From assembly GCA_948144175.1 (NCBI GenBank), contig CANXME010000235.1, positions 58,201-122,200 of the forward strand: DNA of 64,000 nucleotides, read 5' to 3'. A program made the position numbers and the translations under genes. The DNA comes from Closterium sp. NIES-65. Its lineage: Eukaryota; Streptophyta; Zygnematophyceae; Desmidiales; Closteriaceae. Positions 16,560 through 51,500 of the stretch are shown here, one piece after another (the first letter of the stretch is position 1; the number at the start of each line of letters is the position of its first letter). The notes below the pieces were generated by a model, which was given only the letters and a program-made list of their open reading frames with translations, was not told the origin of the DNA and ran no database searches.

Positions 16560-16561
16560 TG

Positions 16562-18230: not shown

Positions 18231-18259
18231 ATTGTTGGCCCTTCGGATATGTTGCTCTC

Positions 18260-18800: not shown

Positions 18801-18899
18801 AACGGTCGGTGTTTGGCCAAGGTACTTGGCCACCCTCATTCCAGCTGCTACCTGCTCCTCATTAGGGCATTGCACAACCCTAGCCAGCTGCCCGGTAGC

Positions 18900-21789: not shown

Positions 21790-23034
21790 GAGCAAGTCCG
21801 GGCGAGGATGTCATGCTATAGGTAGCGCCACTATCAATCACCCAATAGTCCAGGGGGTGTAGGGTCACCTTCCCCACAGCTGCTGGCTCCTCAAAGCCTT
21901 CATCCTTCTCTGGACCAGCCGGTACTTGCGTCGACACGAAGTAGAATAGACCCGGGTATCGATCGTCGCTCGGGTCCTTGTCGTTGTCTCCGCTCTTCAT
22001 GTTTGCAGCTCCGCCACCGCGACCGCCACGGCCTCCACGGCCTCTTCCTCTCCCTCCTCCTGCTCCTCTACCCTCTTGGCCTTGAGCAGGGGTCCAACCA
22101 TCAGGGAGTTTGTAGCAGTCGCGCCACATGTGTCCGCTCTTGTGGCAATAGTGACACTCGCCGTCGAATCGGCCGCGACCGCGTCCGTAGCTTCTTCTCG
22201 TCGCTGCCGTAACCGCCACTCCCTGCGGCCTCCGCCGAAGTTGCTGCCACCAAACCTTCCTCCCCCTCGTCCTCTGCCTCTTCCTCGACCATATCCACGG
22301 CCGATGCTCGCTGCCCCAGCGCCATCCGCACTCGCCAACTCACGGCGGCGGAAATCCTCTTGAAGGATAGCTCGCTTCACGTCTTCAAGCGAGAGGCGGG
22401 GCAAGTCGCGATTAAGGTTGATGATGAGCGAGGACCATGACTCCGGGAGTAGGGCCAGCAACTTGGTCTTCTTTTGGAGCTCACTATAGTTCAAATCAGC
22501 TCCCTCAAGCCGCGTCAACAAGTCGAAGAATTTCTGCACCCCTTCTTCAACCGCTTCATCCTCTTCAATTCGTAACGTCGCCATTTGCCGTTCCAACACC
22601 ACAGCTACCGCCGCTGTTGCAGGAGCGTGTACACCCTTGAGAGCAGCCCATGCTTTTGGTCCCTTCTCTGGTTCACGCTGGAAAGGCTTGATGTGACGGA
22701 TTTGGCTGCTCCCCAACGCTTGCCCAAGTAGGAGGTAGCCTTGTGCGCTCTTCCGCACCCACGGGCTCTTCTCCGGGTCGTTCTCGGGACGCTTCTCCGT
22801 TCCTTCCATCACCTCCAGCAGGTCATAGTGGTCAAATATGTTCTCCATTCTGAAGGACCACTCAGCAAAGTTGTCACCATTGAACTTGTCAAGGCCAAAC
22901 ACTCTAGGCTCATCCCTAGATGGGCCAACACTTGGTTGCACGGGCGCCATGGCTGAGTCACGGGGTTGGCCTTGAGCTTGGGCTTCTCCTCTGCCACCAG
23001 CACCTCTGCCACCCCTTTCCTCAGGTCCAGCCAT
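21790..23034 (-). mobile_element. Copia GAG and protease region
   Basis: The GAG part starts near 23034 (MAGPEERGG) with the Copia-type motif NFAEWSFRMENIF. A zinc knuckle CHYCHKSGHMWRDC lies near 22114-22158, preceded by a Gly/Arg-rich stretch. An aspartic protease signature (WVIDSGATYSMTS) follows near 21815-21855. It is part of a defective element. Confidence 0.9.
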
Positions 23035-23054
23035 TGTCGAAACTGCTCCAAGGG

Positions 23055-23066
23055 GCTCTGATACCA
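23055..23066 (-). other. Copia primer-binding site (tRNA-iMet type)
   Basis: The element-sense TGGTATCAGAGC lies two bases inside the 5' LTR and matches the 3' end of initiator-methionine tRNA. This is the commonest primer site in plant Copia elements. Confidence 0.92.
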
Positions 23067-23068
23067 CT

Positions 23069-23901
23069 TGTTATAGTCACAGTAGGCTCCAATGTGCCTA
23101 AAACGAAAGATAGAGTGCACAGTCGGATTTCTGCACAGCGGCTTCAAACGTTCATAGCGTTCTGGTGACAGCTTCAAATGACTTGATTCAACTTGGATCT
23201 GGAGCGTCTTATTGTCGCCTACAATAGGCAATTTAGATCGCACGATTTGACCAAGTATTGACGACACAGTGTCGGTTTGAACGAACGGCACTATGGCAGC
23301 CACTATAGTCTTAGAACACAAAATAGGAAGAGATCTGAAGAGTTACGAGTTGGGAATGACTCCCAGCTCCTACAAACCCCAAGAGCCGAGGTACAGTGAT
23401 GTGGAACAGTGCCACACTGTCCCCAACCACGAAGGGTCTCGAAACTACCCTTCACTAGGGCCTACACCAAGTGAAATGTTACACTACACAAAGTAATGTA
23501 ACTATCTTCAATATCTTGAGGTGTACCCTTTTGGCGAGCTTTGAAATCACTTGAGGCTTGACACCAAGGCTCGGGCTCTTCATCACAAACTCATCCTTGA
23601 GTTCTTGATGGGTCTGCTGCACACACCTGCGACACACCGAACGTTCGACACAGGACAAAATAGAAACCGCGCACGACAAAATAGAAACCGCGCGCGAGAC
23701 ACAAACGACCAGCGTAACACGCGTCTAGCGATAACTCGCTATTGACCCGACACATACACTCGACATCATGACTCAACATTCACACACAATTATAAGCATG
23801 AAATATATATTATCCCATGCCCTCATACCATTCCATACACACACACACATGCACGCACACTGGACAACAAGCCGAGTGCAAACCATAGGGTTGCACCAAC
23901 A
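23069..23901 (-). repeat. Copia 5' LTR
   Basis: This LTR of about 833 bp, in element sense starting TGTTGGTGCAACCC, would contain the element promoter. It is nearly identical to 17387-18217. Confidence 0.95.
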
Positions 23902-23906
23902 CTGGC

Positions 23907-24513
23907 TGGGGGTAGGAACGGCAGCGTGGAGTTAGGGAGAGGTAGAGGGAGGCTGGGGTAGGTGGCTGGATTGCGCAGGGAGCAGGGGCAGGGGGTGTAG
24001 AGATTGGATGGGGGTGGGAAAGGCGGCGTGGTGTCAGGTGGCGGCAGTTGGGTCCTCGGAGGGCCTGGCAGGGCAGGATGCAGAGGTGCAGCCCACGCTG
24101 GATGCGGAAATAGCTGGGGGGGAAAAGGGAGGCTGGAGGGGGAGGTACGGCTCGTAGAGGTGTGGGGGACAGAGTGGGAGTGGGGAAGGCAGGAGGGGGG
24201 GTGGAGGAGGGACGTTGTGGACAGTGGAGTGGGGGAACATGCGGGTGATGATAGGGAGAAGCCGGGGGGGGGGGGGGGGGAGAAGGGGGAGGTGGTATGA
24301 AGTGGGCGAGGGTGACGCACGGGCGGAGCGCGGCGGTACTAAGGGCACGGAGACGGGGGGCTGGGGGAGAAAGGCCTGCTTGAGGGCGTGGTGGGGGATA
24401 AGGGGAGAGGGGCGGTAATGCTGGTGGGCAAAAGGGGAGGGTGTGGTGTAGTATGATGAAACAGAATGGGGGGGTGGCGGACTGGATGGGGCCCTGGAGG
24501 GTTGGGAGAACAA
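23907..24513 (-). pseudogene. ORF1-like pyrimidine-rich region of LINE B, 5' part
   Basis: This continuation of the LINE sequence right of the Copia insertion corresponds to about 5218-5824 in copy A. It is purine-rich on the + strand and contains a poly-G tract near 24264-24281. Coding status is doubtful. Confidence 0.3.
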
Positions 24514-25662
24514 GGTGTAAGCTGCCGTTCTGATTTTCCCTGTTTTTTTTTTCCGATTTATATGAATTTCTTTTTCTTTTCTTTTTTCCTTGAAGTTGTT
24601 TCCTCTTATTTCCTACGGTTTCCAGAAACAGGGCGGCCTCTGCTAGCTAAGCGCCGTTAGGGAAAGAGGTTAGGTGGCGGGGTGGCTAAAGCGCGCGTGT
24701 GAGGGGGAAAGGGGCGGTGTGAGCAGGGAGGTGACTATGTGGGTGGCGACGGGGTAAGATTACGACGTGTGGGTGGCATGCACGAGTGCGCGACGAGGCA
24801 TGGCAGGGTGGGAGTGAGCAAAAGGGGAGTGGGGCGGCTTGTGTGCCAAACGTGGGCGGCTAAAACGCTCTAGGCAGAAAACGCGCTTCGGGAGGCGCGC
24901 AAGGGGAGGGCTGCTTAAACGCTACGAACGCAGCAATTTCGCCTCCCTCCGCGCTGCCTTTCCCTGGCGGTAAGCGCCCCGTGCGCGGTTCCGTCTACGT
25001 TGCGGCTAGATTGAACGGGCGGGGAAAACGAGTGCGTGACTAAACATGATAGGCGACGAGAAAGCGTGCTTGGAAACGCGCGGCTCTTCGAATTAGGGTT
25101 TCGATAAAGGAGGGCGCACCGAAAGGGAAGGAAGAGTGCTAACTACGGGCGGAAGCTAAGCTCAGTGACTTCGAGAGAGGGAAACCGCGGGAAAAAACTC
25201 GGTATTTGCTAATCGCTTCGAATAGCAAAGCCGTGGGCAGAAAAGAGCGGGGGGATAAGGGAGAGTGTCGAGAGAGGGGATGGGCGGGAACACCGTGTCT
25301 GGCGGAGTTGTGGTTGTGAGTCGCGCGCGCTGTTACACTCCGCGGGCGAACTTCGCGTCAACGCCCCACCTCCCGTTACACCGGCTGCAGCCCGTCCGCA
25401 GCGATCCCGCGATGGCGGGGTCGAACAAACGGTTCCGTAACACCCCGCGAGTTCCGTTTCCGAGACTCCTGAGGGTCGCGCGCGAAACTCGCGACCCCCG
25501 TCCCGTCGAACTCCACAGTCGAAACTGGAAAACTAACCGTTGGAAACGCTTATAACTATAACATAAACAACTATCACAATCACTTTGTCCTTAAGCAACT
25601 CGAAATAGTAGGTTTAGGAGGCTCCTTAGTAGGCAGCCATGGCTAGGTAAGCTAGGTCAAGG
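24514..25662 (-). other. LINE 5' terminal region, copy B
   Basis: This region of about 1.15 kb is almost identical to 5825-6973 in copy A, with the same hairpin and the same 11-nt match to the 5S target (gctaagcgccg near 24646). No gene is seen; it is a possible promoter and 5' UTR. Confidence 0.5.
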
Positions 25663-25730
25663 GCTAAGCGCCGGTGGGCGAGAGCAGTACTGGGCTGGGT
25701 GACCTCCCGGGAAGTCCTCATGTTGTACCC
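25663..25730 (+). pseudogene. 5S rRNA gene, 3' fragment downstream of LINE B
   Basis: This fragment matches 5S positions 51-118, starting with the 25-bp target duplication (25663-25687). It has one change from the other units (tcctcatgttg for tcctcgtgttg). The complete internal control region (A box, intermediate element, C box) is retained. Confidence 0.9.
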
Positions 25731-30467: not shown

Positions 30468-30542
30468 TGGTACGATCATACCTCGGCTACTACGCCGGAT
30501 CCCATCAGAACTCCGAAGCTAAGCGCCGGTGGGCGAGAGCAG
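30468..30542 (+). pseudogene. 5S rRNA gene, 5' fragment upstream of LINE C
   Basis: This fragment matches 5S positions 1-75 exactly as in the uninterrupted gene at 55755, ending in gagagcag before the LINE 3' end. The A box and intermediate element are present and the C box is absent. Confidence 0.93.
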
Positions 30543-30895
30543 TTATTCATTAATAAGGGAAGAGCAAATACAAGCCGAATATAATGGTTTTTCCAAGACT
30601 AGGAAATTTCGACATAGCCTAAGCGCTATGAGGACGATATATATATTTTGTAGGAAAAGGGGGAAAGAAAGGAAAGGAAGGAAAGATGAAGGAGTAAGAA
30701 GAAGTGGTAGGGAAAGGAAGAGGGTGGTAGGAAGAGAAGGGAAGGATAGAAGAAGGGAACAGAAAGAGGGAGGTGGGAAGAGAAGAGGAGAGAGAGAGAG
30801 AGACTAAGGAGGAGGAAGCACCAAAGGACCAAACACGGCAGCAACCCGCACGACCGCACGGGCACAAGCGTTTCAAGCACAGCCACTATTGTTTT
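30543..30895 (-). other. LINE 3' UTR, copy C
   Basis: This 353-nt region runs from the ORF2 stop to the 5S junction, with a long C/T-rich tract and an AT-rich 3' terminus. The same sequence begins every copy at the 5S junction, as expected for the RNA end recognised by the element's RT. Confidence 0.8.
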
Positions 30896-33800
30896 TTACA
30901 CATATGCATCATATATATACTGCATATCAGCCACACTCTCGAAGCACCCTGTGACGTGGTGCCAAGTTCCCTGCCCCGCACCCAGTGGGACTGGTGCGGG
31001 CATCCACCCGTCGTCGGACCTCCCTAACTGCCGCACCGCATGCTGGATCATGCATTGAGCCTGCGCGCGCTGCAGTGCAACGGAGAGGCGTGTAGTGAGT
31101 CCTGCCTCAAATATCCGTGCCGATCCGTCATCCCCCCCACCTCTATCCCTCCTCCGCTGTGCTATCCTCTTTGCGCAGAGCCCCAGAAACTGACGCAGCG
31201 GCTCACTCAGAAGGCCAAAGGTCTCCGCCACGCACGCGTAAAAGTGTGGTGCCGGCTGCAGCCCCTCTAAGTGCGGCCCCCAGTGACGCAGCTTCTCCTG
31301 CACCCGCCTAGCTGCTGCCACTCCAATCTGTGTGGGGGTCGCCCGTCTCAGCTGCACGTTCCCCTCCCGCTGTGGATCCGCTATGGAGACATCCACAAGA
31401 ACCATCAGACCCTGGCCAACGTCGCGGCAGGTGAGGTCTGGAATGCGGGAGGCGGTGCCTACACGGCCTGTGCGTCCGACTGGTCCCTGCTGTTGCGCTG
31501 GCTGCTGCCCTGTCTGGTCCCTTGGTGCCCCCTCTCCGATCGTCTCTCTCCCCCTCTCCTCTCCTCCATCCACCTGTCCTCTCCCCTCCCCCTCCCTACC
31601 CTCCCCCAAACCTCCCGACCCCCCTGCTCCATCCCCTGCTGCCTCTCTCACTCCCTGGCCCTCCCCTCCCAATCCCGCTGCCCCTCCTGTACCTCCGTCC
31701 GCTCTCTGCTGCTCCCGCCCCTGCCCCGCCCCCGAGGCCGAACCTGGAGGCGCGGCGCCCTGGGCCCGCGGCCTCCACTGGCTCTCCTGCTGCTGCCTGT
31801 GCCGTCCCCCCTCCCCGTCCTGGCCCGTCTGCTCCCCCTGCCGTCCCCTCTGCCCACCTGTCCCTCGCTCCACCTGACCCCGCAGCTGGTGCCGTCCCCA
31901 CTGTCCCCCGCCACCCGGCTGTCCCGCCTCGCCTCTCCGCTCCCCCGGTCCCTCAGCCCGTGTCCCCTCTCCCACCACTGGCTGTCCCAGTAGTCTCGCT
32001 CGAGCCGCCTCCAACTGTGTGAACAGCGTAGAGTCCTCCACCTTTACCGCGAAGCCCGCCTCGACCGCAAAGTCTCGAAGCATGTACTTCACCGTGTCGT
32101 GGATGGTAGTGGCGACCCCGTAACGCGGGCACCGAACCGCGTGATGAGGCACCGTCATGTCGTCAATCGCCTGTCCGCAGGAGCACTGACCTGCAAGGGC
32201 TAACTGGGGGATAGGGAGACCAAGACGAGAAGATGAAGCCGCCTGCCACAGCGCCTCCGGGATGCGCAGTGGGTCGGCGTACGGCACCGACGTCAACCAC
32301 GCTCCTGCACCTCCGCCCTGAAGGGAAGTCAAACGGGCAAGGTGCAAGGGAGAGGTGTGACGGGCACGCACGGCCTCCAAGGCATGCGCCTCCAGAAGAC
32401 GGCTCGCTCCTGCAAAAAGGGAATCGGGGGAGGCAGAAGCGCAAGAGGGCCAGGGGGGAAGGAGAGAGAGAACGTCAGGAGGGAGACCCTCTAGCGCCGT
32501 CTGCAGAGCCCGGTCGATCTGCTCTGGCTCACCTGAAGCGAAGCTCTGCCGAAACACCTCGCCACACGCAGGGAGAGAACAGAGAATGGGTGCACACTGC
32601 ACCCAGGAGCACACGAAACTCACCGGGGCAATGCGCGCCATGCGACGAATGCCGAAACCCCCGAGACGGATGGGGAGGAAGATCTGGTCTAGGGCGGCCT
32701 CTCGGACGTCCTCGCGACAAGCCCAGGTCCCTGAAGCTAAAAGCTGCTGAAAAGTCTCTCCCAGGCGTGCGTCCCACCGTGTAAAACTGGAGATCACTGC
32801 GGGCGAAGGAGGGACGGTCCTCGACAGGTACTGCGGACGAGTGCTGACACACGCCGAAAGAAGGCGGGCAGCTGTCTGGGGCTGGCGCAACCTCGGAAGC
32901 CAAGGTAGCACCCGCCCCATCCTCTCGAGACGATCCGGGAGACTCTGCTCCACGAACGAAACGGTGCCTACCGGTACGCCTGTCACGGTGAGCCCTCGGC
33001 GTGCGACCTCGATCCCTAGGCCCGTGAAAGCCTCCAGATCCCTGGACAGAAAGGACTCTGTCTGGTAGACGAGGCACTTGTGCGGCTGGGCTGCAAGGCC
33101 CATCTCGCCCAAGCGCCTCACGATCTCGGCAAAATGGTGCAGCACCCTGTCTGGGGGACCTAGCACGTACGTGTCATCGGCGTACGACCAGAGCTGGACA
33201 TCCCCCTCCGCCAGAACCGGCTCCAAAGCAAGACGCTGTGTCAGAGCGTACAAGAAGGGGCTGAGAGGGTCTCCCTGGCGAGTGCCCCGCTCCGAGTGCA
33301 TCGTGACCACTCCCGTGCCTGACCTGTAGTGGAGATCCGAGGGCGTCCCGTAGAAGAGGCCGATGAAGGGGATCAGACACTGAAACTCCGGACTGGCCTG
33401 CAGCGCCTGAAACATCCTGTCTCGGTGGAAAGAGTTAAAGGCATTCGCCACGTCTAGCTGCAGGACCACCCAGTCTGGGTGGTCAGCCAGAGCGCGGCGG
33501 ACGCCTCTAACTACGACCTCTGTCCCGCACGTAACCCCCACCCCAAACTGCTGTGATGCCAAGAAGACCCTCGCCATCTGGTCACGTAGCTGGAGACAAA
33601 CTGCCCGAGAAAGAATGCGGACCAAAACCTCGCCGATGGCAATCGGCCGAACATCCATGTTCGACTTCGCCAGAGCCACGAGGGTGGAGGACGCTAGCAA
33701 GGAGCGCGCAGCTGGAGCGCAACGGCCTCGGAGCCACTGCTGGTACACGGCCAGGAGGAAATGGAGACTCTGAGGGAAAGCTAGGAAAGTGTCTCGCAGG

Positions 33801-36800
33801 TGCTCAGCGACCCAACCGGACGGTCCTCCCGAAGAGCCCCGCGGAGCTGTGAAAATCGCGCGGCGTAAGTGATCCACCGAGAGCACGAGAGGGGACCCCT
33901 GGAAGCCAGACAGCCAAGCTGGGGTCGGCCTCTCCGCGTTGGGGTGCTTCGACTGCAGGCGCTGTATCGTCCCCTGTGTATCTGGGGCTGCCTCCGCGGA
34001 CTCGAGAGCCGCGCACGCCCGTGAGGTCTCATTGCACGCTGCCAGACGAAGGCAACGTGCAATGCGGCGCTCATCTGCTGCAGAGGGATCGGTGGCGGTG
34101 CGTGACCGGTGACCTGTGCGGCGAGGAAGGGGTGTGCGACGGCCTAGTGCATCTGAGACTAGCTCAGCCCACTCACCTCGACCAAAGCGAGAGATGCGCG
34201 TTGCAATGGCAGCCGTGTGCGAGCGGTCGGGTGGCGTCGCTGGAACAAGGAAAAGAGTCGGCGCTGCAGCGAGGAGGAAGGTAGGGCCAGCAGCCTCCGG
34301 GTCCTGGGCAATGCGGACTAGGATCGCACTGAGGACGTCAAGATATCCTCCGCGGACCCTCTCCGGGACACGTCGGAGAGGGCGTGTATGGATACGCTCG
34401 GGCGAGAAGTACTCTGTCCAGTCCACCGAGTCGAGCGTCTGCCACTGTGCGTCGGTGAACTGCATCCCGGTCGCACGGGGCTGTGAGAGGGAAGGGATGA
34501 TCGAGGCGGTATCATGGGCAGCCTGCGCCCTGCGAGCCGCGTCCGCAGGATGGCAGAAGGGAATGTGGTGCTGGAGCGCGCGTCGGTTCGCGAGAGAGCT
34601 CCTGCAGGTGGGGCAACTCACGACCTGGTCGGGTGATGTCGCCGTGTCGGCGGGGTCAATCGGGGCCGTGGCGTCGGAACTGGCTGTAGAGGGGACCCCG
34701 TGGGCGGCCTGAGCTCCGACAGGATCGCCTGGGATGAGGGGAGGAGACGACTCACCAGCCCCGCGCGGGGGGGGTGTCAGCGAAGATAGAGGTGGTGTCG
34801 CACAGGATAGGGCCGGGCCTCGTGCCGGTACCGGTGTTGAAGCTGGGGAGGGGGGACGTGGAGGTGAGCCTGAAGTGTGTGCCGTGGTGTGCTCCTGCCC
34901 CTCGGCGGGGTGCGGTTCAAGTGACGGCTCTGCTACCCCAGGCGGAGGGGTCTCGGTAGGGGCGGATGCCTCATCCCTACTGCTGGTGACCTCCTGCGCC
35001 ACGGGCTGAACGGGGGGAGGCGCCACCCCGTCTAGGTGCGAGTGACACGGCCTCAGACCCCGGTCCGTCTCCATTGGGGTCGGGAGTGACGCGCCTGGCT
35101 GAGTGGCGGGGGGGATAAAAGAAGGGACAGACCGGGTGACCTCCGCATACGTCCGGGTCCGGTCCTGTGGGACTGGAAGGGTGGGGGCAGCCGGAGAGCT
35201 GCTCAGGCGGTGTATCGCCAGCAAATCTGAAATGCCAGCCCTCACCTCCTCTGGGGTCTCGAAGACCTGCCTGCCTGTAGGTGAGAGTAGGAGGGCTGGC
35301 AGGGTAGAGGGTGGAGTGGGGCGTGCTGGCTGAGCGGAGCTCGGGTGTGGACCCTGCCCTAGAAGGCCCCCTTGGCCCTCCCCAATCACCATGGGTTGCG
35401 GTAGGGGGTCGTCGACATGGAAGGGGTGGGAGGGATGGGAGGGGGAGTCGGTGGCGTCTGCCATGGGCGCATCCCTCAACCCGACGGCCCCCCTCCCAGT
35501 AGCGATCGCGGCCGCCGCCACCTGGGAGGGGGACACAGCACGGGAGGGGCAGAATGGGGGTGAGTGGGCTGGTCCGCTCCCATGGCCCTGTGGAGGTGCA
35601 GGAGCGGGGCGGGAGTGTAGGTTTGGTGGTCGGGCTGTAGAGGTAGGGCCTGGTAATTGTTCAACGGGATGTGAGGTGGGGAGGGGCTCTTGGTGGGGGA
35701 GGGAGGGAGGGGGGAGTACGTGGGCTGACCCTCTGCCTCCTCTGCCCCTGTTCTTCCGCCGGCGGCCAACCTGGTTGTCCGCGCCTGTTTGTGAAGGAAG
35801 GGGGGGCTGTGGGGCCAAAGGGGTGGGTGGAGGGAGGATGGGTGGTTCGCCAGGCAGGGGGTGCTCTGTGTGCATCCCCACTCTCCTCGAAACATCCCCC
35901 TCCGTGGGAACAGATCGGGCAAGCTGTGTGTGGGGGGTGATGGCTGCCCAACGGGGCCACTCGTGGGGAACCCGGCCGGGAGAGGGGGTTGGAGGTGGGG
36001 GTCGAGGGGCTGGGCCAGTGTGGAGGTTAGAGCGAGGTACAAACGGTGGGGGGAGAGAGATTTGTGTGGGCTCTGTGGTGGCCTCTCCTGTGGGCCCCTC
36101 TACCCGGGTGCCGCCGCTCCCATGAGCCTGGGGCGCAAGCCCTTGCGGGTGGGTCTCGGCTGCCTGGGGGGGGTGGTGTGGGGAGGGCAGCCTGTTGGGT
36201 GGGCGTGTTGGGGCTGTGCGGCGACTCGGGTGGTTTGGGTGCCTGTAGCGTGTGGGAGAGGGATTTGGCCGCAGAGATGCTTCAACCTCCGAGATGTGTG
36301 TACTACCGGGTGGGGGGGGGCCTGGTGGAGGAGGGGGTAGTGGGCCGGTAAGGGGTGGCTGGGTGTTGGTAGGAGTCGGGGAGCATGGCTCCTCTAGGAA
36401 GACCAGAGCCCTGGCTGCTCCACGTGGTGCTCTAAGGAGCCCCTGAGGGTGGGGGCAGAGGTGTGCTGCCCTTGGGGGTGAAGGAAGGAGTGAGGGAAGG
36501 GGCGGGGAGGGGTGAGAGGTGAGAGAAGGGGTGCCCTCGGGTGACTCTGCTCTTGTCGCACCCGCGTGCTCTCCCGGTGGACCGCCTGCAACCGTGGGGT
36601 CAGGCGTTGGGGACGGAGAGGGGGGCTGGCCATGGAGCAGCGTGGGGGTCGGGGAGCACGGCTCCGCCAAGAAGGCCAGGGCCTTGGCTGCCCCCCTGGA
36701 CACTACCGGGACCTGAGGGTGGGGGTGGGGAAGTGGTGCTCCTGGGGGCTGGTGGGCTGGAGGACGGGAGGTGAGGATGGGGGCTCCCTCGCGCGGCTCT

Positions 36801-38936
36801 GTCCTCAAGGTCTCCCCCAGCCCCTCCATCGGTCCTTCTGCTAGCATGGGGACGGGCATGGGGGGTAGAGGGGGAACCTCGACGTGAGGCTGCAGGGGGG
36901 CCGGGTCGGCCTCACCGTCAAGCGTGAGGTATTGGGCCAGTGGCCCGTCAATGTGCATCACATCCTCTCCCTCATCCTCCTCTATCGCTATCACATCCCC
37001 CTCTTCAGTGCCCACCCCGGTCGGGACCACCCTCCCCTCTCCTTCCCCTGTTGCCCCTATGTCCCCCAAGCCCACCCCGCCTGCTGCCGCTTTACTGCTA
37101 GCCCCTTTTGCAGTCTCTGCCGGCCCTGCCGGCCCTGCTGTGTGTTTCCCCGAGTTTGCTGCGGCCCCTGCCGCCCCTACTGGCCGTGCTATGGCCCTCC
37201 CTGCTGCTTCAGCTGCAGCCTCACCTTCTGCCTTTGAGGCCCCTGCCGTACCCTCTCTTGCTACAGCCGGGGCGGCACTCTCCCTCGCACCAGTCCCCGT
37301 TACCCCCTTCCCCGCTGCACCCGTAGCACCTCCCCCTATACCAGCCCCCGCTGTGGCCTCTGTCGCTCCTGCTGCAGTCCTTGCAGCCTCGACTGCTGCA
37401 GTCTGTAAAACCTCGCCTACCGTAATCTGCTCAGCCTCACCAGCCGCGATCCCTGTAGCCTCACGTGCTGCAGTCCCTGCAGCCTCACGTGCTGCAGTCC
37501 CTGCAGCCTCACCCGCTGCAGTCCCTGCGGCCTCACCTGCTGCAGTCTGTGCAGCCTCACCTGCTAGAATCTGCTCAACCTCACATGCTGCGGCCTCTGC
37601 AGCCTCACCTGCTGCGGCTATTTCAGCCTCACCTGCTGCGCTCCCTGCGGCCTCACCTGCCATGGTCCCGCCTGCAGCCTCATCCGCTGTGGTCCCTGCC
37701 GCCTCACCTGCTGCAGTCCCTGCGGCCTCACCTGTTGCAGTCCATGCGACCTCACCAGCTGTAGACTGTGCAGCCTCACCTGCTAGAGTCTGCCCAACCT
37801 TACATGATGCAGCCCTCGCAGCCTCACCTGCTGCGTCCGCCGCAGCCTCACCTGCTGTGGCCCCTGCAGTCCCGCCTGCTGCGCTCCCTGCAGCCTCGCC
37901 TGCTGCGCTCCCTGCAGCCTCGCTTGCTGCGCTCCCTGCGGCCTCACCTGCTGCGCTCTCTGCAGCCTCACCTGCTGCGCCCCCTACAGCCTCACCTGCT
38001 GCGCTCCCCGCAGCCTCACCTACTGCGCTCCCTGCGGCCTCACCTGCCATGGTCCCTCCTGCAGCCTCACCCGTTGTGATCCCTGCAGCCACACCTGCTG
38101 TGGTCTGTGCGGCCTCACCTGGTGCGGTCCCTATAGCCTCCTCTGCTGCGGTTCCCCCAGCCGACAGCAGCAGCAGGTTCCGTGGCCCCTACTCCTGCAA
38201 AACCTGTCTCCATGGCCTCTGCCCTTTGCCTGGCCAGAGTCACGGTCCCTGCCGCCCCTTCCCGTGCAGCCCCTGCCGCCCTTTCCCGTGCAGCCGCTGC
38301 TGCCCCTTCCCTTGCAGCCTCTGCTGCCCTTTCCTCTGCAGCCTCTGCTGCCCCTTCCCCCACAACCCCCATTGCCCCTTCCCGTGCAGCCTTTGCTGCC
38401 CCATCCTCTGTAGCCTCTGCTGCTCCTTCACACACAAACTCACTTACCCCTTCCCGTGCAGTGTCAGCTGCAAGTTCCCCCCTGGCTCTGCCCTCTCCCG
38501 CTTCTATGTGCTTGGGGGTGCGGGTAGGATTAAGTGTTTTCACAAGTAATCTGGTTTGCGAATGGGAGGTAGCGAGTGAGTTGGAGGATCTCTCTACTGA
38601 GCATGCATGGGTGCCGCCCCCGCTGTCACCTGAAGGGGGGGTAGACTGGGATGGGGCAGCGGGGGTAGGGCGCGGTTTTGAGCGTGCTGGCTCCTCCTCG
38701 TGTATTTCCTCCAGTGGGGCTTGGCGTTCCTCTGTTCCATCCTCTTCAAAGGTACGCTTCTGGCCCCTAGGGTCAGATTGTGTGAGTGTTTTCGCTTGGT
38801 CAGGTGTGTGTTGTTTCTTCCTGACTGTTGAAGTGGGGGGAGTGGGAGAGTAGGGGGTGGCTCGGCTGCGGGACCTCCCAGATCGCCGAGGGGCTCCCGG
38901 GCCTGCCTTTCCCCCACTCGCGGGGTGCTGGGGCAT
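30896..38936 (-). pseudogene. LINE ORF2 polyprotein, copy C: Ala-rich repeats, C2H2, RT, CCHC, endonuclease (one frameshift)
   Basis: From the conserved ATG at 38936 the consensus frame is about 2,680 codons. One extra base near 38165 (gacagcagcagc against gacacagcagc in copy E) shifts the frame, leaving an N-terminal 273-codon frame and a 2,398-codon main frame from 38092. Domains by DNA position: Ala-rich repeats about 37370-38500, C2H2 finger 34546-34622, RT motif A QLDVANAFNSF near 33433-33468, YADD near 33161-33190, C-C-H-C knuckle 32120-32190, PD...D endonuclease core 31385-31450, conserved tail to 30896. The catalytic residues D, DD and PD...D are all present. Length is about twice a typical R2 protein because of the Ala-, Pro- and Gly-rich low-complexity regions. 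Confidence 0.9.
37370..38150 (-). repeat. Coding minisatellite (Ala-rich repeats) in LINE copy C
   Basis: Tandem units of about 30-33 bp encode Ala/Gly/Glu repeats such as GEAAGSAAGEA. The tract differs from copy A in unit number and order. Confidence 0.8.
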
Positions 38937-38938
38937 TG

Positions 38939-40168
38939 TTACAGAGGCAGCATGCCTGGCGGTGGCGGTGTGAGTTGCTGGGGTTGGCTCAAGAGGGCGT
39001 CAAAGGGGGAAGGAACTCCCTGGCAGAGGCCGGGGTGCGGGGGGTTAGCTTGGGGAAAGGGGAAAAGGGTGGGGAAAGCGGTGCGCAGTGGGTGGAAGAG
39101 AGGGTAGAGGGGGCCTGACAGTTGGAGGGGATTGGGGCCCAAGGGGGGGGCGGGCTGGGGGCCGATTGAGAGGGGAAGTGTTGGCGGGCTGTAGTGGAGG
39201 TGGGGGGGCGGGGGTGGTGTAGCGGTGGGTGAGCAGGGTGTGGGGACAGGTGGTGGGCCAGAGGTGGGGAGGGCAGGGCAGAATTCCACGGGAGGTGGGG
39301 GTGGGCAGGTGGAGCCAGGTGGGAAAGGAAGGGTGGGGAACAGAGAGGAAGGGGCAAAGGGTAGTGGGTAGTCGAGTTGGCGTGAGCCTGGTAGCGGGTA
39401 ATGAGAAGGTTGGGAGGCGGGGGGTGAGAACGTGGGAGGGCAGAGAGGGCACCGAAAGGAGGTGCTGTGGTAAATGCAGGATAGGATGCGGGGCCGGGAA
39501 ACAGGGGACAGAGGGAATTGGGGAATCGATGAAGGGTGATAGCTGCGGATGGGCGAGCCCCAGGGGGGAGGAAATATGGAGGGTGTTGGAGAAGGGGGAG
39601 ACTGGGGGGGGTTGAGGTAGGGTGTTGGAGGGCACAAGGGGCAGGAACAGGGGGTGCAAAAGTTGGCTGGGGGAGGGAGAGGCGGTCTGGTGCCGCGGAA
39701 AGGCGGAGGGAGGTTGGGGACGGCACAGCCCAGGGAGCAAAAGCAAGGGGTGTAGACCTTGGCTGGGGGTAGGAACGGCGGTGTGGAGTTAGGGAGAGGT
39801 AGAGGGAGGCTGGGGTAGGTGGCTGGATTGCGCAGGGAGCAGGGGCAGGGGGTGTAGAGATTGGATGGGGGTGGGAAAGGCGGCGTGGTGCCAGGTGGCG
39901 GCAGTTGGGTCACCGAAGGGCCTGGCAGGGCGGGATGCAGAGGTGCAGCCCACGCTGGATGCGGAAGTAGCTGGGGGGGAAAGGGAGGCTGGAGGGGGAA
40001 GTACGGCTCGTAGAGGTGTGGGGGGCAGAGTGGGAGTGGGGAAAGCAGGAAGGGGGGTGGAGGGACGTTGTGGACAGGGGAGTGGGGGAACATGCGGGTG
40101 ATGATAGGGAGAAGCCGGGGGGGGGGGGAGAAGGGGGAGGTGGTATGAAGTGGGCAAGGGTGACGCAC
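38939..40168 (-). CDS. Possible ORF1 of LINE copy C (proline-rich, uncertain)
   Basis: This 409-codon proline-rich frame ends with the same TAACAATG junction to ORF2 as in copy A, and about 85 percent of residues look alike where both are open. The upstream start differs because a poly-G tract (40117-40129) varies in length. The strand composition alone could keep it open, so coding is unproven. Confidence 0.3.
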   Translation of the reverse strand: MRHPCPLHTTSPFSPPPRLLPIITRMFPHSPVHNVPPPPFLLSPLPLCPPHLYEPYFPLQPPFPPQLLPHPAWAAPLHPALPGPSVTQLPPPGTTPPFPPPSNLYTPCPCSLRNPATYPSLPLPLPNSTPPFLPPAKVYTPCFCSLGCAVPNLPPPFRGTRPPLPPPANFCTPCSCPLCPPTPYLNPPQSPPSPTPSIFPPPWGSPIRSYHPSSIPQFPLSPVSRPRILSCIYHSTSFRCPLCPPTFSPPASQPSHYPLPGSRQLDYPLPFAPSSLFPTLPFPPGSTCPPPPPVEFCPALPTSGPPPVPTPCSPTATPPPPPHLHYSPPTLPLSIGPQPAPPLGPNPLQLSGPLYPLFHPLRTAFPTLFPFPQANPPHPGLCQGVPSPFDALLSQPQQLTPPPPGMLPL

Positions 40169-40362
40169 GGGCAGAGCGCGGCGGTACTAAGGGCAGGGAG
40201 ACGGGAGGCTGGGGGGAGAAAGGCCTGCTTGGGGGCGTGGTGGGGGATAAGGGGAGAGGGGCGGTAATGCTGGTGGGCAAAAGGGGAGGGTGTGGTGTAG
40301 TATGATGAAACAGAATGGGGGGGTGGCGGACTGGGTGGGGCCCTGGAGGGTTGGGAGAACAA

Positions 40363-41508
40363 GGTGTAAGCTGCCTTTCTGATTTTTCCTGGTTTTTTCG
40401 GATTTATATGAATTTCTTTTTCTTTTCTTTTTTCCTTGAAGTTGTTTCCTCTTATTTCCTACGGTTTCCAGAAACAGGGCGGCCTCTGCTAGCTAAGCGC
40501 CGTTAGGGAAAGAGGTTAGGTGGCGGGGTGGCTAAAGCGCGCGTGTGAGGGGGAAAGGGGCGGTGTGAGCAGGGAGGTGACTATGTGGGTGGCGACGGGG
40601 TAAAATTACGACGTGTGGGTGGCATGCACGAGTGCGCGACGAGGCACGGCAGGGTGGGAGTGAGCAAAAGGGGAGTGGGGCGGCTTGTGTGCCAAACGTG
40701 GGCGGCTAAAACGCTCTAGGCAGAAAACGCGCTTCGGGAGGCGCGCAAGGGGAGGGCTGCTTAATCGCTACGAACGTAGCAATTTCGCCTCCCTCCGCGC
40801 TGCCTTTCCCTGGCGGTAAGCGCCCCGTGCGCGGTTCCGTCTACGTCGCGGCTAGATTGAACAGGCGGGGAAAACGAGTGCATGACTAAACATGATAGGC
40901 GACGAGAAAGCGTGCTTGGAAACGCGCGGCTCTTCGAATTAGGGTTACGATAAAGAAGGGCGCACCGAAAGGGAAGGAAGAGTGCTAACTACGGGCGGAA
41001 GCTAAGCTCAGTGACTTCGAGAGAGGGAAACCGCGGGAAAAAACTCGGTAGCAGCTAATCGCTTCGAATAGAAAAGCCGTGAGCAGAAAAGAGCGGGGGG
41101 ATAAGGGAGAGTGTCGAGAGAGGGGATGGGCGGGAACACCGTGTCTGGCGGAGTTGTGGTTGTGAGTCGCGCGCGCTGTTACACTCCGCGGGCGAACTTC
41201 GCGTCAGCGCCCCACCTCCCGTTACACCGGCTGCAGCGCGTCCGCAGCGATCCCGCGATGGCGGGGTCGAACAAACGGTTCCGTAACACCCCGCGAGTTC
41301 CGTTTCCGAGACTCCTGAGGGTCGCGCGCGAAACTCGCGACCCCCGTCCCGTCGAACTCGACAGTCGAAACTAAAAAACTAACCGTTGGAAACGCTTATA
41401 ACTATAACATAAACAACTATCACAATCACTTTGTCCTTAAGCAACTCGAAATAGTAGGTTTAGGAGGCTCCTTAGTAGGCAGCCATGGCTAGGTAAGCTA
41501 GGTCAAGG
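40363..41508 (-). other. LINE 5' terminal region, copy C (possible promoter/5' UTR)
   Basis: This is the same conserved region as in A and B, with small differences near the poly-T tract (about 40384-40400). It contains the GC-rich hairpin (ggtcgcg...cgcgacc, near 41322-41345) and the 11-nt match to the 5S target near 40493. No ORF is seen. Confidence 0.5.
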
Positions 41509-41576
41509 TAAGAGCGCCGGTGGGCGAGAGCAGTACTGGGCTGGGTGACCTCCCGGGAAGTCCTCGTGTTGTACCC
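41509..41576 (+). pseudogene. 5S rRNA gene, 3' fragment downstream of LINE C
   Basis: This fragment matches 5S positions of about 51-118; the first bases read taagagcgcc instead of gctaagcgcc, a small junction alteration that touches the A box. The intermediate element and C box are intact. Confidence 0.9.
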
Positions 41577-42109
41577 ATTTATGCCCCTTGCTCGGCACGT
41601 GCCGGGGGAGGGGCAAGCGGGAAAAAGAAAGGACGATTTTAGCGCGTCCGATTCTTTTCTTTTCGTTTTTTTGCCCAAACAACGACCCAGCGGGGTGGGG
41701 GGCCCCCGGGGAGGCTTGCCCATGCGAAGAAACGCCCCGTGCGCACCACCGTTGGGCGGTTGGAAGCCGCACACGGTCGCGGGGGTGGAGAGCGGAAACG
41801 GGCAGCCGGGGGAGGGTGGGGGCGGTTGGATGGGACTTGGGGTGTACGGGGGGCAGGGGAGTTGAGGGGGCAAGGGGAGGGGCAGCAACGGGCAGGGGCT
41901 GGGCCAACTGAGGGCACGGAAAAGGGGCGGGCAGAGGGTGAGCAGAGGGGCGAGCGATGCAAGGGTGGCACCATAGGGGGGAAACCAGTTGCACGGAGGT
42001 GGGAGGTGAGGGGCGTGCGAGGGGGTGGGAAAGGGGCAGGGAGGGGCAGAATGGGAGGATGTAGGTGGGGGGGGGTGGGGGAGGGGAGTGTGCGTGTGTG
42101 TGTGTGTGT

Positions 42110-43090: not shown

Positions 43091-43165
43091 TGGTACGATC
43101 ATACCTCGGCTACTACGCCGGATCCCATCAGAACTCCGAAGCTAAGCGCCGGTGGGCGAGAGCAG
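43091..43165 (+). pseudogene. 5S rRNA gene, 5' fragment upstream of LINE D
   Basis: 5S positions 1-75, ending gagagcag at the LINE junction, with sequence as in the other interrupted genes. Confidence 0.93.
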
Positions 43166-43512
43166 TTATTCATTAATAGGGGAAGAGCAAATACAAGCCG
43201 AATATAATGGTTTTTCCAAGACTAGGAAATTTCGACATAGCCTAATCGCTATGAGGACGGTATATATATTTTGTAGGAAAAGGGGGAAAGAAAGGAAAGG
43301 AAGGAAGGATGAAGGAGTAAGAAGAAGTGGTAGGGAAAAGAAGAGGGCGGTAGGAAGAGAAGGGAAGGATAGAAGAAGGGAACAGAAAGAGGGAGGTGGG
43401 AAGAAAAGAGGAGAGAGGGAGAGAGACTAAGGAGGAGGAAGCACCAAAGGACCAAAACACGGCAGCAACCCGCACGACCGCACGGGCACAGCGTTTCAAG
43501 CACAGCCACTAT
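43166..43512 (-). mobile_element. 5S-inserted LINE, copy D: 5'-truncated, 347 bp (3' UTR only)
   Basis: It contains only the last 347 bases of the element: it starts at the usual 3' junction and stops within the 3' UTR at ccactat, before the ORF2 stop region. It is flanked by a 16-bp duplication (cggtgggcgagagcag at 43150-43165 and 43513-43528), shorter than that of full-length copies. Severe 5' truncation with a target duplication is the hallmark of incomplete target-primed reverse transcription. Its sequence mixes features of B and C, so it is an independent insertion. Confidence 0.92.
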
Positions 43513-43571
43513 CGGTGGGCGAGAGCAGTACTGGGCTGGGTGACCTCCCGGGAAGTCCTCGTGTTGTACCC
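43513..43571 (+). pseudogene. 5S rRNA gene, 3' fragment downstream of LINE D
   Basis: 5S positions 60-118, beginning cggtgggcg. It keeps the intermediate element and C box but only the end of the A box. Confidence 0.92.
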
Positions 43572-45164: not shown

Positions 45165-45517
45165 TTATTCATTAATAAGGGAAGAGCAAATACAAGCCGA
45201 ATATAATGGTTTTTCCAAGACTAGGAAATTTCGACATAGCCTAAGCGCTATGAGGACGATTTATATATTTTGTAGGAAAAGGGGGAAAGAAAGGAAAGGA
45301 AGGAAAGATGAAGGAGTAAGAAGAAGTGGTAGGGAAAGGAAGAGGGTGGTAGGAAGAGAAGGGAAGGATAGAAGAAGGGAACAGAAAGAGGGAGGTGGGA
45401 AGAGAAGAGGAGAGAGAGAGAGAGACTAAGGAGAAGGAAGCACCAAAGGACCAAACACGGCAGCAACCCGCACGACCGCACGGGCACAGCGTTTCAAGCA
45501 CAGCCACTATTGTTTTT
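45165..45517 (-). other. LINE 3' UTR, copy E
   Basis: Same as in copy C apart from a few substitutions shared with copy F and one extra T in a T run near 45512-45520. No gene is seen. Confidence 0.75.
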
Positions 45518-48500
45518 TTACACATATGCATCATATATATACTGCATATCAGCCACACTCTCGAAGCACCCTGTGACGTGGTGCCAAGTTCCCTGCCCCG
45601 CACCCAGTGGGACTGGTGCGGGCATCCACCCGTCGTCGGACCTCCCTAACTGCCGCACCGCATGCTGGATCATGCATTGAGCCTGCGCGCGCTGCAGTGC
45701 AACGGAGAGGCGTGTAGTGAGTCCTGCCTCAAATATCCGTGCCGATCCGTCATCCCCCCCACCTCTATCCCTCCTCCGCTGTGCTATCCTCTTTGCGCAG
45801 AGCCCCAGAAACTGACGCAGCGGCTCACTCAGAAGGCCAAAGGTCTCCGCCACGCACGCGTAAAAGTGTGGTGCCGGCTGCAGCCCCTCTAAGTGCGGCC
45901 CCCAGTGACGCAGCTTCTCCTGCACCCGCCTAGCTGCTGCCACTCCAATCTGTGTGGGGGTCGCCCGTCTCAGCTGCACGTTCCCCTCCCGCTGTGGATC
46001 CGCTATGGAGACATCCACAAGAACCATCAGACCCTGGCCAACGTCGCGGCAGGTGAGGTCTGGAATGCGGGAGGCGGTGCCTACACGGCCTGTGCGTCCG
46101 ACTGGTCCCTGCTGTTGCGCTGGCTGCTGCCCTGTCTGGTCCCTTGGTGCCCCCTCTCCGATCGTCTCTCTCCCCCTCTCCTCTCCTCCATCCACCTGTC
46201 CTCTCCCCTCCCCCTCCCTACCCTCCCCCAAACCTCCCGACCCCCCTGCTCCATCCCCTGCTGCCTCTCTCACTCCCTGGCCCTCCCCTCCCAATCCCGC
46301 TGCCCCTCCTGTACCTCCGTCCGCTCTCTGCTGCTCCCGCCCCTGCCCCGCCCCCGAGGCCGAACCTGGAGGCGCGGCGCCCTGGGCCCGCGGCCTCCAC
46401 TGGCTCTCCTGCTGCTGCCTGTGCCGTCCCCCCTCCCCGTCCTGGCCCGTCTGCTCCCCCTGCCGTCCCCTCTGCCCACCTGTCCCTCGCTCCACCTGAC
46501 CCCGCAGCTGGTGCCGTCCCCACTGTCCCCCGCCACCCGGCTGTCCCGCCTCGCCTCTCCGCTCCCCCGGTCCCTCAGCCCGTGTCCCCTCTCCCACCAC
46601 TGGCTGTCCCAGTAGTCTCGCTCGAGCCGCCTCCAACTGTGTGAACAGCGTAGAGTCCTCCACCTTTACCGCGAAGCCCGCCTCGACCGCAAAGTCTCGA
46701 AGCATGTACTTCACCGTGTCGTGGATGGTAGTGGCGACCCCGTAACGCGGGCACCGAACCGCGTGATGAGGCACCGTCATGTCGTCAATCGCCTGTCCGC
46801 AGGAGCACTGACCTGCAAGGGCTAACTGGGGGATAGGGAGACCAAGACGAGAAGATGAAGCCGCCTGCCACAGCGCCTCCGGGATGCGCAGTGGGTCGGC
46901 GTACGGCACCGACGTCAACCACGCTCCTGCACCTCCGCCCTGAAGGGAAGTCAAACGGGCAAGGTGCAAGGGAGAGGTGTGACGGGCACGCACGGCCTCC
47001 AAGGCATGCGCCTCCAGAAGACGGCTCGCTCCTGCAAAAAGGGAATCGGGGGAGGCAGAAGCGCAAGAGGGCCAGGGGGGAAGGAGAGAGAGAACGTCAG
47101 GAGGGAGACCCTCTAGCGCCGTCTGCAGAGCCCGGTCGATCTGCTCTGGCTCACCTGAAGCGAAGCTCTGCCGAAACACCTCGCCACACGCAGGGAGAGA
47201 ACAGAGAATGGGTGCACACTGCACCCAGGAGCACACGAAACTCACCGGGGCCATGCGCGCCATGCGACGAATGCCGAAACCCCCGAGACGGATGGGGAGG
47301 AAGATCTGGTCTAGGGCGGCCTCTCGGACGTCCTCGCGACAAGCCCAGGTCCCTGAAGCTAAAAGCTGCTGAAAAGTCTCTCCCAGGCGTGCGTCCCACC
47401 GTGTAAAACTGGAGATCACTGCGGGCGAAGGAGGGACGGTCCTCGACAGGTACTGCGGACGAGTGCTGACACACGCCGAAAGAAGGCGGGCAGCTGTCTG
47501 GGGCTGGCGCAACCTCGGAAGCCAAGGTAGCACCCGCCCCATCCTCTCGAGACGATCCGGGAGACTCTGCTCCACGAACGAAACGGTGCCTACCGGTACG
47601 CCTGTCACGGTGAGCCCTCGGCGTGCGACCTCGATCCCTAGGCCCGTGAAAGCCTCCAGATCCCTGGACAGAAAGGACTCTGTCTGGTAGACGAGGCACT
47701 TGTGCGGCTGGGCTGCAAGGCCCATCTCGCCCAAGCGCCTCACGATCTCGGCAAAATGGTGCAGCACCCTGTCTGGGGGACCTAGCACGTACGTGTCATC
47801 GGCGTACGACCAGAGCTGGACATCCCCCTCCGCCAGAACCGGCTCCAAAGCAAGACGCTGTGTCAGAGCGTACAAGAAGGGGCTGAGAGGGTCTCCCTGG
47901 CGAGTGCCCCGCTCCGAGTGCATCGTGACCACTCCCGTGCCTGACCTGTAGTGGAGATCCGAGGGCGTCCCGTAGAAGAGGCCGATGAAGGGGATCAGAC
48001 ACTGAAACTCCGGACTGGCCTGCAGCGCCTGAAACATCCTGTCTCGGTGGAAAGAGTTAAAGGCATTCGCCACGTCTAGCTGCAGGACCACCCAGTCTGG
48101 GTGGTCAGCCAGAGCGCGGCGGACGCCTCTAACTACGACCTCTGTCCCGCACGTAACCCCCACCCCAAACTGCTGTGATGCCAAGAAGACCCTCGCCATC
48201 TGGTCACGTAGCTGGAGACAAACTGCCCGAGAAAGAATGCGGACCAAAACCTCGCCGATGGCAATCGGCCGAACATCCATGTTCGACTTCGCCAGAGCCA
48301 CGAGGGTGGAGGACGCTAGCAAGGAGCGCGCAGCTGGAGCGCAACGGCCTCGGAGCCACTGCTGGTACACGGCCAGGAGGAAATGGAGACTCTGAGGGAA
48401 AGCTAGGAAAGTGTCTCGCAGGTGCTCAGCGACCCAACCGGACGGTCCTCCCGAAGAGCCCCGCGGAGCTGTGAAAATCGCGCGGCGTAAGTGATCCACC

Positions 48501-51500
48501 GAGAGCACGAGAGGGGACCCCTGGAAGCCAGACAGCCAAGCTGGGGTCGGCCTCTCCGCGTTGGGGTGCTTCGACTGCAGGCGCTGTATCGTCCCCTGTG
48601 TATCTGGGGCTGCCTCCGCGGACTCGAGAGCCGCGCACGCCCGTGAGGTCTCATTGCACGCTGCCAGACGAAGGCAACGTGCAATGCGGCGCTCATCTGC
48701 TGCAGAGGGATCGGTGGCGGTGCGTGACCGGTGACCTGTGCGGCGAGGAAGGGGTGTGCGACGGCCTAGTGCATCTGAGACTAGCTCAGCCCACTCACCT
48801 CGACCAAAGCGAGAGATGCGCGTTGCAATGGCAGCCGTGTGCGAGCGGTCGGGTGGCGTCGCTGGAACAAGGAAAAGAGTCGGCGCTGCAGCGAGGAGGA
48901 AGGTAGGGCCAGCAGCCTCCGGGTCCTGGGCAATGCGGACTAGGATCGCACTGAGGACGTCAAGATATCCTCCGCGGACCCTCTCCGGGACACGTCGGAG
49001 AGGGCGTGTATGGATACGCTCGGGCGAGAAGTACTCTGTCCAGTCCACCGAGTCGAGCGTCTGCCACTGTGCGTCGGTGAACTGCATCCCGGTCGCACGG
49101 GGCTGTGAGAGGGAAGGGATGATCGAGGCGGTATCATGGGCAGCCTGCGCCCTGCGAGCCGCGTCCGCAGGATGGCAGAAGGGAATGTGGTGCTGGAGCG
49201 CGCGTCGGTTCGCGAGAGAGCTCCTGCAGGTGGGGCAACTCACGACCTGGTCGGGTGATGTCGCCGTGTCGGCGGGGTCAATCGGGGCCGTGGCGTCGGA
49301 ACTGGCTGTAGAGGGGACCCCGTGGGCGGCCTGAGCTCCGACAGGATCGCCTGGGATGAGGGGAGGAGACGACTCACCAGCCCCGCGCGGGGGGGGTGTC
49401 AGCGAAGATAGAGGTGGTGTCGCACAGGATAGGGCCGGGCCTCGTGCCGGTACCGGTGTTGAAGCTGGGGAGGGGGGACGTGGAGGTGAGCCTGAAGTGT
49501 GTGCCGTGGTGTGCTCCTGCCCCTCGGCGGGGTGCGGTTCAAGTGACGGCTCTGCTACCCCAGGCGGAGGGGTCTCGGTAGGGGCGGATGCCTCATCCCT
49601 ACTGCTGGTGACCTCCTGCGCCACGGGCTGAACGGGGGGAGGCGCCACCCCGTCTAGGTGCGAGTGACACGGCCTCAGACCCCGGTCCGTCTCCATTGGG
49701 GTCGGGAGTGACGCGCCTGGCTGAGTGGCGGGGGGGATAAAAGAAGGGACAGACCGGGTGACCTCCGCATACGTCCGGGTCCGGTCCTGTGGGACTGGAA
49801 GGGTGGGGGCAGCCGGAGAGCTGCTCAGGCGGTGTATCGCCAGCAAATCTGAAATGCCAGCCCTCACCTCCTCTGGGGTCTCGAAGACCTGCCTGCCTGT
49901 AGGTGAGAGTAGGAGGGCTGGCAGGGTAGAGGGTGGAGTGGGGCGTGCTGGCTGAGCGGAGCTCGGGTGTGGACCCTGCCCTAGAAGGCCCCCTTGGCCC
50001 TCCCCAATCACCATGGGTTGCGGTAGGGGGTCGTCGACATGGAAGGGGTGGGAGGGATGGGAGGGGGAGTCGGTGGCGTCTGCCATGGGCGCATCCCTCA
50101 ACCCGACGGCCCCCCTCCCAGTAGCGATCGCGGCCGCCGCCACCTGGGAGGGGGACACAGCACGGGAGGGGCAGAATGGGGGTGAGTGGGCTGGTCCGCT
50201 CCCATGGCCCTGTGGAGGTGCAGGAGCGGGGCGGGAGTGTAGGTTTGGTGGTCGGGCTGTAGAGGTAGGGCCTGGTAATTGTTCAACGGGATGTGAGGTG
50301 GGGAGGGGCTCTTGGTGGGGGAGGGAGGGAGGGGGGAGTACGTGGGCTGACCCTCTGCCTCCTCTGCCCCTGTTCTTCCGCCGGCGGCCAACCTGGTTGT
50401 CCGCGCCTGTTTGTGAAGGAAGGGGGGGCTGTGGGGCCAAAGGGGTGGGTGGAGGGAGGATGGGTGGTTCGCCAGGCAGGGGGGTGCTCTGTGTGCATCC
50501 CCACTCTCCTCGAAACATCCCCCTCCGTGGGAACAGATCGGGCAAGCTGTGTGTGGGGGGTGATGGCTGCCCAACGGGGCCACTCGTGGGGAACCCGGCC
50601 GGGAGAGGGGGTTGGAGGTGGGGGTCGAGGGGCTGGGCCAGTGTGGAGGTTAGAGCGAGGTACAAACGGTGGGGGGAGAGAGATTTGTGTGGGCTCTGTG
50701 GTGGCCTCTCCTGTGGGCCCCTCTACCCGGGTGCCGCCGCTCCCATGAGCCTGGGGCGCAAGCCCTTGCGGGTGGGTCTCGGCTGCCTGGGGGGGGTGGT
50801 GTGGGGAGGGCAGCCTGTTGGGTGGGCGTGTTGGGGCTGTGCGGCGACTCGGGTGGTTTGGGTGCCTGTAGCGTGTGGGAGAGGGATTTGGCCGCAGAGA
50901 TGCTTCAACCTCCGAGATGTGTGTACTACCGGGTGGGGGGGGGCCTGGTGGAGGAGGGGGTAGTGGGCCGGTAAGGGGGTGGCTGGGTGTTGGTAGGAGT
51001 CGGGGAGCATGGCTCCTCTAGGAAGACCAGAGCCCTGGCTGCTCCACGTGGTGCTCTAAGGAGCCCCTGAGGGTGGGGGCAGAGGTGTGCTGCCCTTGGG
51101 GGTGAAGGAAGGAGTGAGGGAAGGGGCGGGGAGGGGTGAGAGGTGAGAGAAGGGGTGCCCTCGGGTGACTCTGCTCTTGTCGCACCCGCGTGCTCTCCCG
51201 GTGGACCGCCTGCAACCGTGGGGTCAGGCGTTGGGGACGGAGAGGGGGGCTGGCCATGGAGCAGCGTGGGGGTCGGGGAGCACGGCTCCGCCAAGAAGGC
51301 CAGGGCCTTGGCTGCCCCCCTGGACACTACCGGGACCTGAGGGTGGGGGTGGGGAAGTGGTGCTCCTGGGGGCTGGTGGGCTGGAGGACGGGAGGTGAGG
51401 ATGGGGGCTCCCTCGCGCGGCTCTGTCCTCAAGGTCTCCCCCAGCCCCTCCATCGGTCCTTCTGCTAGCATGGGGACGGGCATGGGGGGTAGAGGGGGAA

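Follow-up and report, generated by a model that had tools for sequence, protein, structure and literature searches.

A stretch of 64,000 nucleotides from Closterium sp. NIES-65 (contig CANXME010000235.1, positions 58,201 to 122,200; the window) carries a 10,970 bp element that interrupts a 5S ribosomal RNA (rRNA) gene and is probably, as judged from its sequence, a 5S-rRNA-gene-specific long interspersed nuclear element (LINE) with one long open reading frame (ORF) and a C-terminal restriction-like endonuclease (RLE). A LINE-like reverse transcriptase (RT), target duplications, a 3′ end that stays constant against 5′ ends that vary or are truncated, and the lack of long terminal repeats (LTRs) identify it as a LINE; this pattern of ends, combined with target duplications, marks a LINE that uses target-primed reverse transcription.

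Insertion into 5S rRNA Genes

The full-length copy (copy C) occupies positions 30543–41512 on the minus strand, with its 3′ end at 30543 and its 5′ end at 41512, and is antisense to its host 5S gene, which we take to be streptophyte-like. Nucleotides 1–75 of that gene lie to the left of the insertion (30468–30542, plus strand) and the remainder to the right (41513–41577, plus strand); with the gene start at 30468, the cut falls between nucleotides 75 and 76. A target duplication of 21 bp (30522–30542 = 41513–41533) flanks the element. The left junction at 30542/30543 reads GCGCCGGTGGGCGAGAGCAG/TTATTCATTAATAAGGG, the right junction at 41512/41513 reads ...GGTAAG/AGCGCCGGTGGGCGAGAGCAGTACTGG, and the 5S gene meets the element 3′ end as GAGAGCAG/TTATTC. 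The junctions and the duplication bear out the preliminary description in placing the element inside a 5S gene and correct the length given there, 10,966 bp, in which the terminal TAAG had been left to the target. The absence of poly(A) at the 3′ end was likewise confirmed (terminal sequence ...TTAATGAATAA). The 3′ untranslated region (30543–30895, minus strand) is pyrimidine-rich, and its computed RNA fold is overall nothing unusual (z −0.48). An Rfam scan of the window at E values up to 1 returned 12 matches, all 12 of them to 5S, and thus no known ribozyme was seen.

The same junction recurs throughout the genome (874 Mb in 2,400 contigs searched). The last 35 nucleotides of the element, with up to two mismatches allowed, matched 249 places (95 + 154), and a pattern of 15 nucleotides of 5S followed by 20 nucleotides of element matched 247 (93 + 154), with no match for the reversed or junction control; the two patterns differ, so that these are not strictly nested counts. 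Nor is 247 a count of insertions, because array amplification has produced many of the copies. On contig C571, and also on C253 and C220, 5S units with element 3′ ends repeat about every 2 kb, as if tandem amplification had acted on one unit containing a truncated insert. Flanks fetched at the 3′ end, 30 taken from the 40 scored among 299 candidates, were 5S in 28 cases and something else in two. A pattern requiring a non-5S base at position −8, which is expected to overlook roughly a quarter of random sites, found three places, the same two copies outside 5S and a 5S gene carrying an additional base; these two were the only copies found outside 5S. The earlier expectation that most genomic copies lie in 5S genes is thus upheld by the junction and 3′-end counts.

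The 5′ side varies. Of the full 5′ ends that adjoin 5S sequence (59 in all), 55 have the form TAAG/AGCGCC, including both copies outside 5S, three read GCTAAGCGCC and one reads GGCG/AGCGCC; a truncated copy in the window (copy D, below) adds a further form. Distinct 5′ ends at a single 3′ site indicate independent insertion, and specialization of the family on 5S genes is strongly supported. Fourteen places with only 75–83% RT identity were also inspected. Three of them (C1481, C1496 and C1354) belong to the 5S family, are 96–99% identical to it at the DNA level and lie in 5S genes, seven belong to a sister family discussed below, three (L071, L074 and L100) did not align to the element, and C1872, its 3′ end left out of the inspection, makes up the fourteenth. 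For 99 other places from the RT search, the 5S flank was not tested place by place.

The two copies outside 5S (contigs C1922 and C676) have non-5S flanks at the element 3′ end, and each carries a 5S leader at the other end. In the C676 copy, 5S sequence continues from the usual 5′ junction to nucleotide 94 (39 nucleotides); in the C1922 copy it continues to nucleotide 87 plus AGAGCAGT (32 nucleotides). Beyond this piece stands duplicated local sequence (AGAAATAGCAG; AAAGGCAAG), and these local duplications, of 9 and 11 bp, enclose the 5S piece, which must therefore have been copied together with the element. We infer that the template of both copies came from an element residing in a 5S gene, and that the 5′ end of its RNA lay within this gene, antisense to it.

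Both of these copies also adjoin transfer RNA (tRNA) genes, one of them tRNA-Asn(GTT) (L077, 758–832) across a gap of 76 bp and the other tRNA-Ala(CGC) (L078, 715–788) across a gap of 33 bp. The tRNA scan found none in the window, in eight regions from the sister search or in sequence flanking the 3′ ends of the two copies themselves. With 10,000 tRNA genes assumed, a random site would lie so close to one with a chance of about 0.3%, a figure that bears on two cases only. Retrotransposons guided by the RNA polymerase III (Pol III) machinery exist, and this proximity could mean that the machinery leads targeting rather than the DNA sequence, with 5S favored as the most abundant Pol III gene. 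We regard such an explanation as unlikely: the 5S site is exact to the base, and the off-target nick sites, GGCAAG^TACT and ATAGCAG^GCC, resemble the 5S site AGAGCAG^TACT, and the tRNA proximity amounts to two cases only.

The Encoded Protein

The element is laid out as one long ORF. In copy C the main ORF, 2398 residues from a mechanical GTG start, spans 30896–38092 on the minus strand, and the N-terminal part lies in another frame (38115–38936, minus strand) owing to a frameshift near the N-terminus. Copy A has a single open frame running on from the same start as the 38115–38936 part, and in many other copies the frame stays open for about 2,700 codons. The N-terminal coding region contains 24-bp tandem repeats (37432–38150, 2842–3599, 15457–15930 and 52056–52774) that vary in length among copies.

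A long low-complexity N-terminus is followed by a C2H2 finger (residues 1160–1181; 34550–34615, this and all following features on the minus strand), which is retained in the sister family, and by the RT (RVT_1, residues 1476–1677; 33062–33667; Pfam E 7.3e-18) with the motifs LDVANAFNSF (1546–1555) and YADD (1637–1640). Next come the sequence GAWLTSVP, a CCHC-like knuckle of the form C-x1-C-x10-H-x4-C (1970–1988; 32129–32185) and the start of an RLE-like domain, IHD...KVED (1997–2021; 32030–32104). This domain is split by a low-complexity insert of about 185 residues rich in G, R and Q (2030–2214; 31451–32005), after which follows the core IPD-x14-D-x32-K (31280–31444), with IPD at 2217–2219, D2219, a second aspartate at D2234 and K2267 within KLRHW. 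The order finger, RT, knuckle and IPD core proposed in the preliminary description, together with its VANAFNSF and YADD motifs, was thereby located in the ORF at 30896–38092.

RLE domains are described as having a histidine at the first helix, an aspartate or glutamate after the first strand, a PD-(D/E)xK core and a catalytic lysine in KX2KY (PMC5678591). The C-terminal domain of the element matches in its H, E, PD-x14-D and K, and has KX2HW for KX2KY. It is also the most constrained part of the protein. Between copies B and C, the ratio of nonsynonymous to synonymous substitution rates (dN/dS) is 0.04 for residues 2215–2398 (nine changes in all, eight synonymous and one other), 0.168 for residues 1151–2030, 0.89 for the insert and 0.63 for residues 1–1150; the RT and the C-terminal domain are thus under purifying selection. 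Both aspartates and the lysine are kept in six of six sister rows that cover the core, and the proline of PD in five, with serine in the remaining one.

The RT was compared with known LINEs by search and by phylogeny. A PDB search gave R2 as the best match (1.6e-7), with L1 at 0.0063, and the RT is 22–24% identical to three R2 fragments. The tree comprised 16 sequences, namely the element, its sister, three R2 elements, one L1, seven further LINEs from the Closterium genome (seven of the eight fetched loci, L083 being left out) and three group II introns. Its L1 branch, held at 88.8/88, excludes the element. In the alignment QGDP is common to the element and the three R2 rows, with QGCP in the L1 rows; RPIAIG of the element is similar in two of the three R2 rows, and R2Bm has RPISIA.

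Several findings, besides the limit already placed on the junction count, speak against an RLE-type LINE. The knuckle has the residues named in the preliminary description, but its CX1CX10HX4C spacing departs from the C-x2-3-C-x7-8-H-x4-C published for RLE LINEs (PMC5678591), and its first cysteine is a phenylalanine in the one sister copy read. PDB sequence searches with the C-terminal region returned no RLE protein and no match to R2 or Prp8. The split that joins the RT to R2, which provided the only RLE-type references in the tree, is unsupported (14.8/52). A search with an R2 fragment picked up other LINEs here with scores of up to 92 bits, and the element family is not among the 150 matches listed; the eight LINEs fetched from these matches read as L1-like. 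The earlier proposal of an RLE-type LINE specialized on 5S is upheld in its 5S target, and its RLE type, a motif-based assignment, agrees with the domain order and with the motif geometry of the C-terminal domain; the RT lies apart from the L1 clade, but support for its placement in an RLE lineage was not obtained.

The same C-terminal region gave PDB matches to gyrase B (E 0.0024), which weakened to 0.19 once the sister sequence was added; they were judged to be chance matches for that reason and rejected.

That the C-terminal domain is something other than an RLE, with cleavage left to another or a host nuclease, would fit the missing R2 and Prp8 matches. We nevertheless hold it to be improbable in view of the position of the domain after the knuckle, the order and spacing of its motifs and its constraint, the strongest of any part. 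In addition, a Pfam scan of three ORFs at E values up to 1 detected no other endonuclease domain, and no apurinic/apyrimidinic endonuclease (APE) domain upstream of the RT.

The 5S Array

The window belongs to an array of 5S genes. It holds three uninterrupted 5S genes, at 27235, 28851 and 55755, five left 5S halves that bear insertions, at 8540, 30468, 43091, 45090 and 57390, and, with copy C, six copies of the element (A–F), all on the minus strand. Copy A (1–6973) is interrupted by the start of the window, so that its 5′ part is seen, with the 5′ junction AAGG/GCTAAGCGCC. Copy B (8614–25662) has the variant 3′ end ATATTC and a 25 bp target duplication (8589–8613 = 25663–25687). Copy D (43166–43512) is 5′-truncated to 347 bp and retains a target duplication of 16 bp (43150–43165 = 43513–43528). 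Copy E (45165–54772) lacks its 5′ end, and copy F (57465–64000) is cut by the window end. The 5′ junction is visible in four of the six copies and takes three forms, one shared by A and B (25 bp, with both sides visible in B only), one in C (21 bp) and one in D (16 bp). Copies C, E and F are 99.7–99.9% alike.

Such likeness would be expected if the element had entered 5S genes once or a few times and nearly all copies had then been spread by unequal exchange and gene conversion of the array, its specificity being only apparent. The prevalence of one form among the 5′ ends (55 of 59) and the insert-bearing units repeated about every 2 kb, for example on contig C571, point the same way. Against this stand four 5′ junction forms and one truncation at the same 3′ site, and the two copies outside 5S, whose target duplications demonstrate active retrotransposition and which are the only two found there. 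We consider array spread quite unlikely as the whole explanation and retain a 5S-specific LINE as the preferred reading.

Further features of the array were noted. At 54772–54866, copy E joins the array spacer directly instead of a 5S gene, its 5′ end being absent together with the 5S half beside it; deletion, recombination or an assembly join could each account for the loss. Within the duplicated target stretch, the sequence is CTACGCG in two uninterrupted 5S genes (at 27289 and 28905) and CTAAGCG in the third, as also in the interrupted genes having the stretch. Nested in copy B at 17387–23901 is an LTR retrotransposon with LTRs of about 832 bp that are 99.6% alike, TG...CA ends and a direct repeat CTGGC of 5 bp (or longer); by eye, its ORFs encode copia-type gag, integrase and RT.

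Relatives and Known Systems

The sister family comprises seven dispersed copies (L069, L070, L072, L073, L075, L076 and L101) that align to the 3′ part of the element with 71–74% DNA identity. A 5S flank was found in none of the seven copies examined. The 3′ end is reached in six of them, with four different flanks, two of which are each common to two copies; L069 breaks off before it. A dispersed relative thus coexists with the 5S-specific family in one genome. No relatives of the element came from the viral contig and genome contig collections searched.

R2 of animals lies in 28S genes, sense to the host gene. It resembles the element, whose nuclease is putative, in encoding a zinc finger, an RT, a knuckle and a C-terminal nuclease from a single ORF, in meeting the rRNA gene at an exact 3′ junction and in the upstream rRNA carried at the 5′ end of its RNA (PMC11331408). 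The element differs in its 5S target, antisense orientation, much longer ORF, duplications of 16–25 bp and split RLE-like domain. RLE LINEs have been reported from rRNA, U2 and tRNA genes, from spliced-leader exons and from microsatellites (PMC4640811). Utopia and NeSL elements (U2, spliced-leader, tRNA and 28S targets) are RLE-type and, like the element, have N-terminal zinc fingers and small multicopy RNA genes as targets, but the sections consulted in that source name no 5S target for them; Utopia, reported from Amoebozoa, SAR and Opisthokonta (PMC4640811), targets the U2 small nuclear RNA gene rather than 5S.

Other mobile elements are found in 5S genes or arrays. Dada-5S is a DNA transposon reported in 5S genes, and Jockey-like LINEs have been reported in Tribolium 5S arrays. 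Mutsu is an APE-type LINE of fish. Its targeting of 5S genes, named in the preliminary description, is indeed reported, from zebrafish (PMC3706591); having two ORFs in a length of about 5,500 bp (PMC11202950), it differs from the 10,970 bp element with its one long ORF. That an L1-like or Mutsu-like APE-type LINE occupies the 5S genes here, as Mutsu and the abundance of L1-like LINEs in this genome might suggest, is very improbable given an RT outside the L1 clade and no APE domain in the three ORFs scanned. The open-licence literature searched yielded no RLE LINE in 5S genes, and within it an RLE-type LINE that targets 5S would be new, as a known kind of element with a new target.

Proposed Cycle and Significance

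A cycle is proposed in which an RNA antisense to 5S starts within the interrupted gene, about 39 nucleotides upstream of the element, and the element protein introduces a nick into the 5S sense strand following nucleotide 75. Reverse transcription would be primed at the nick, giving the exact 3′ junction, and a cut in the other strand 16–25 nucleotides away would produce the target duplications. By pairing with the target, the 5S leader of the RNA could favor one 5′ junction. In R2, upstream rRNA at the 5′ end of the template anneals with the target and yields precise 5′ junctions (PMC11331408); the dominant 5′ form seen here could reflect similar annealing, or duplication of the array.

A more tentative extension, which we consider less likely than not as a whole, is that targeting has two layers, in which the RLE reads 5S sequence and a feature of Pol III genes brings the complex near. 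Rare misses would then adjoin tRNA genes, the antisense 5S start would give each template a homology arm of about 39 nucleotides toward its next 5S gene, and the dispersed sister would mean that specificity was recently gained or lost within one genome.

If the RLE assignment is correct, 5S genes join the target list of RLE LINEs. A related enzyme with another multicopy target would be of practical interest, as R2 has already been used for RNA-templated gene insertion (PMC11331408). The 5S leader on the off-target copies offers genomic evidence for where the copied RNA begins, and a specific family alongside a dispersed sister in one genome provides a natural contrast for the origin of target specificity.

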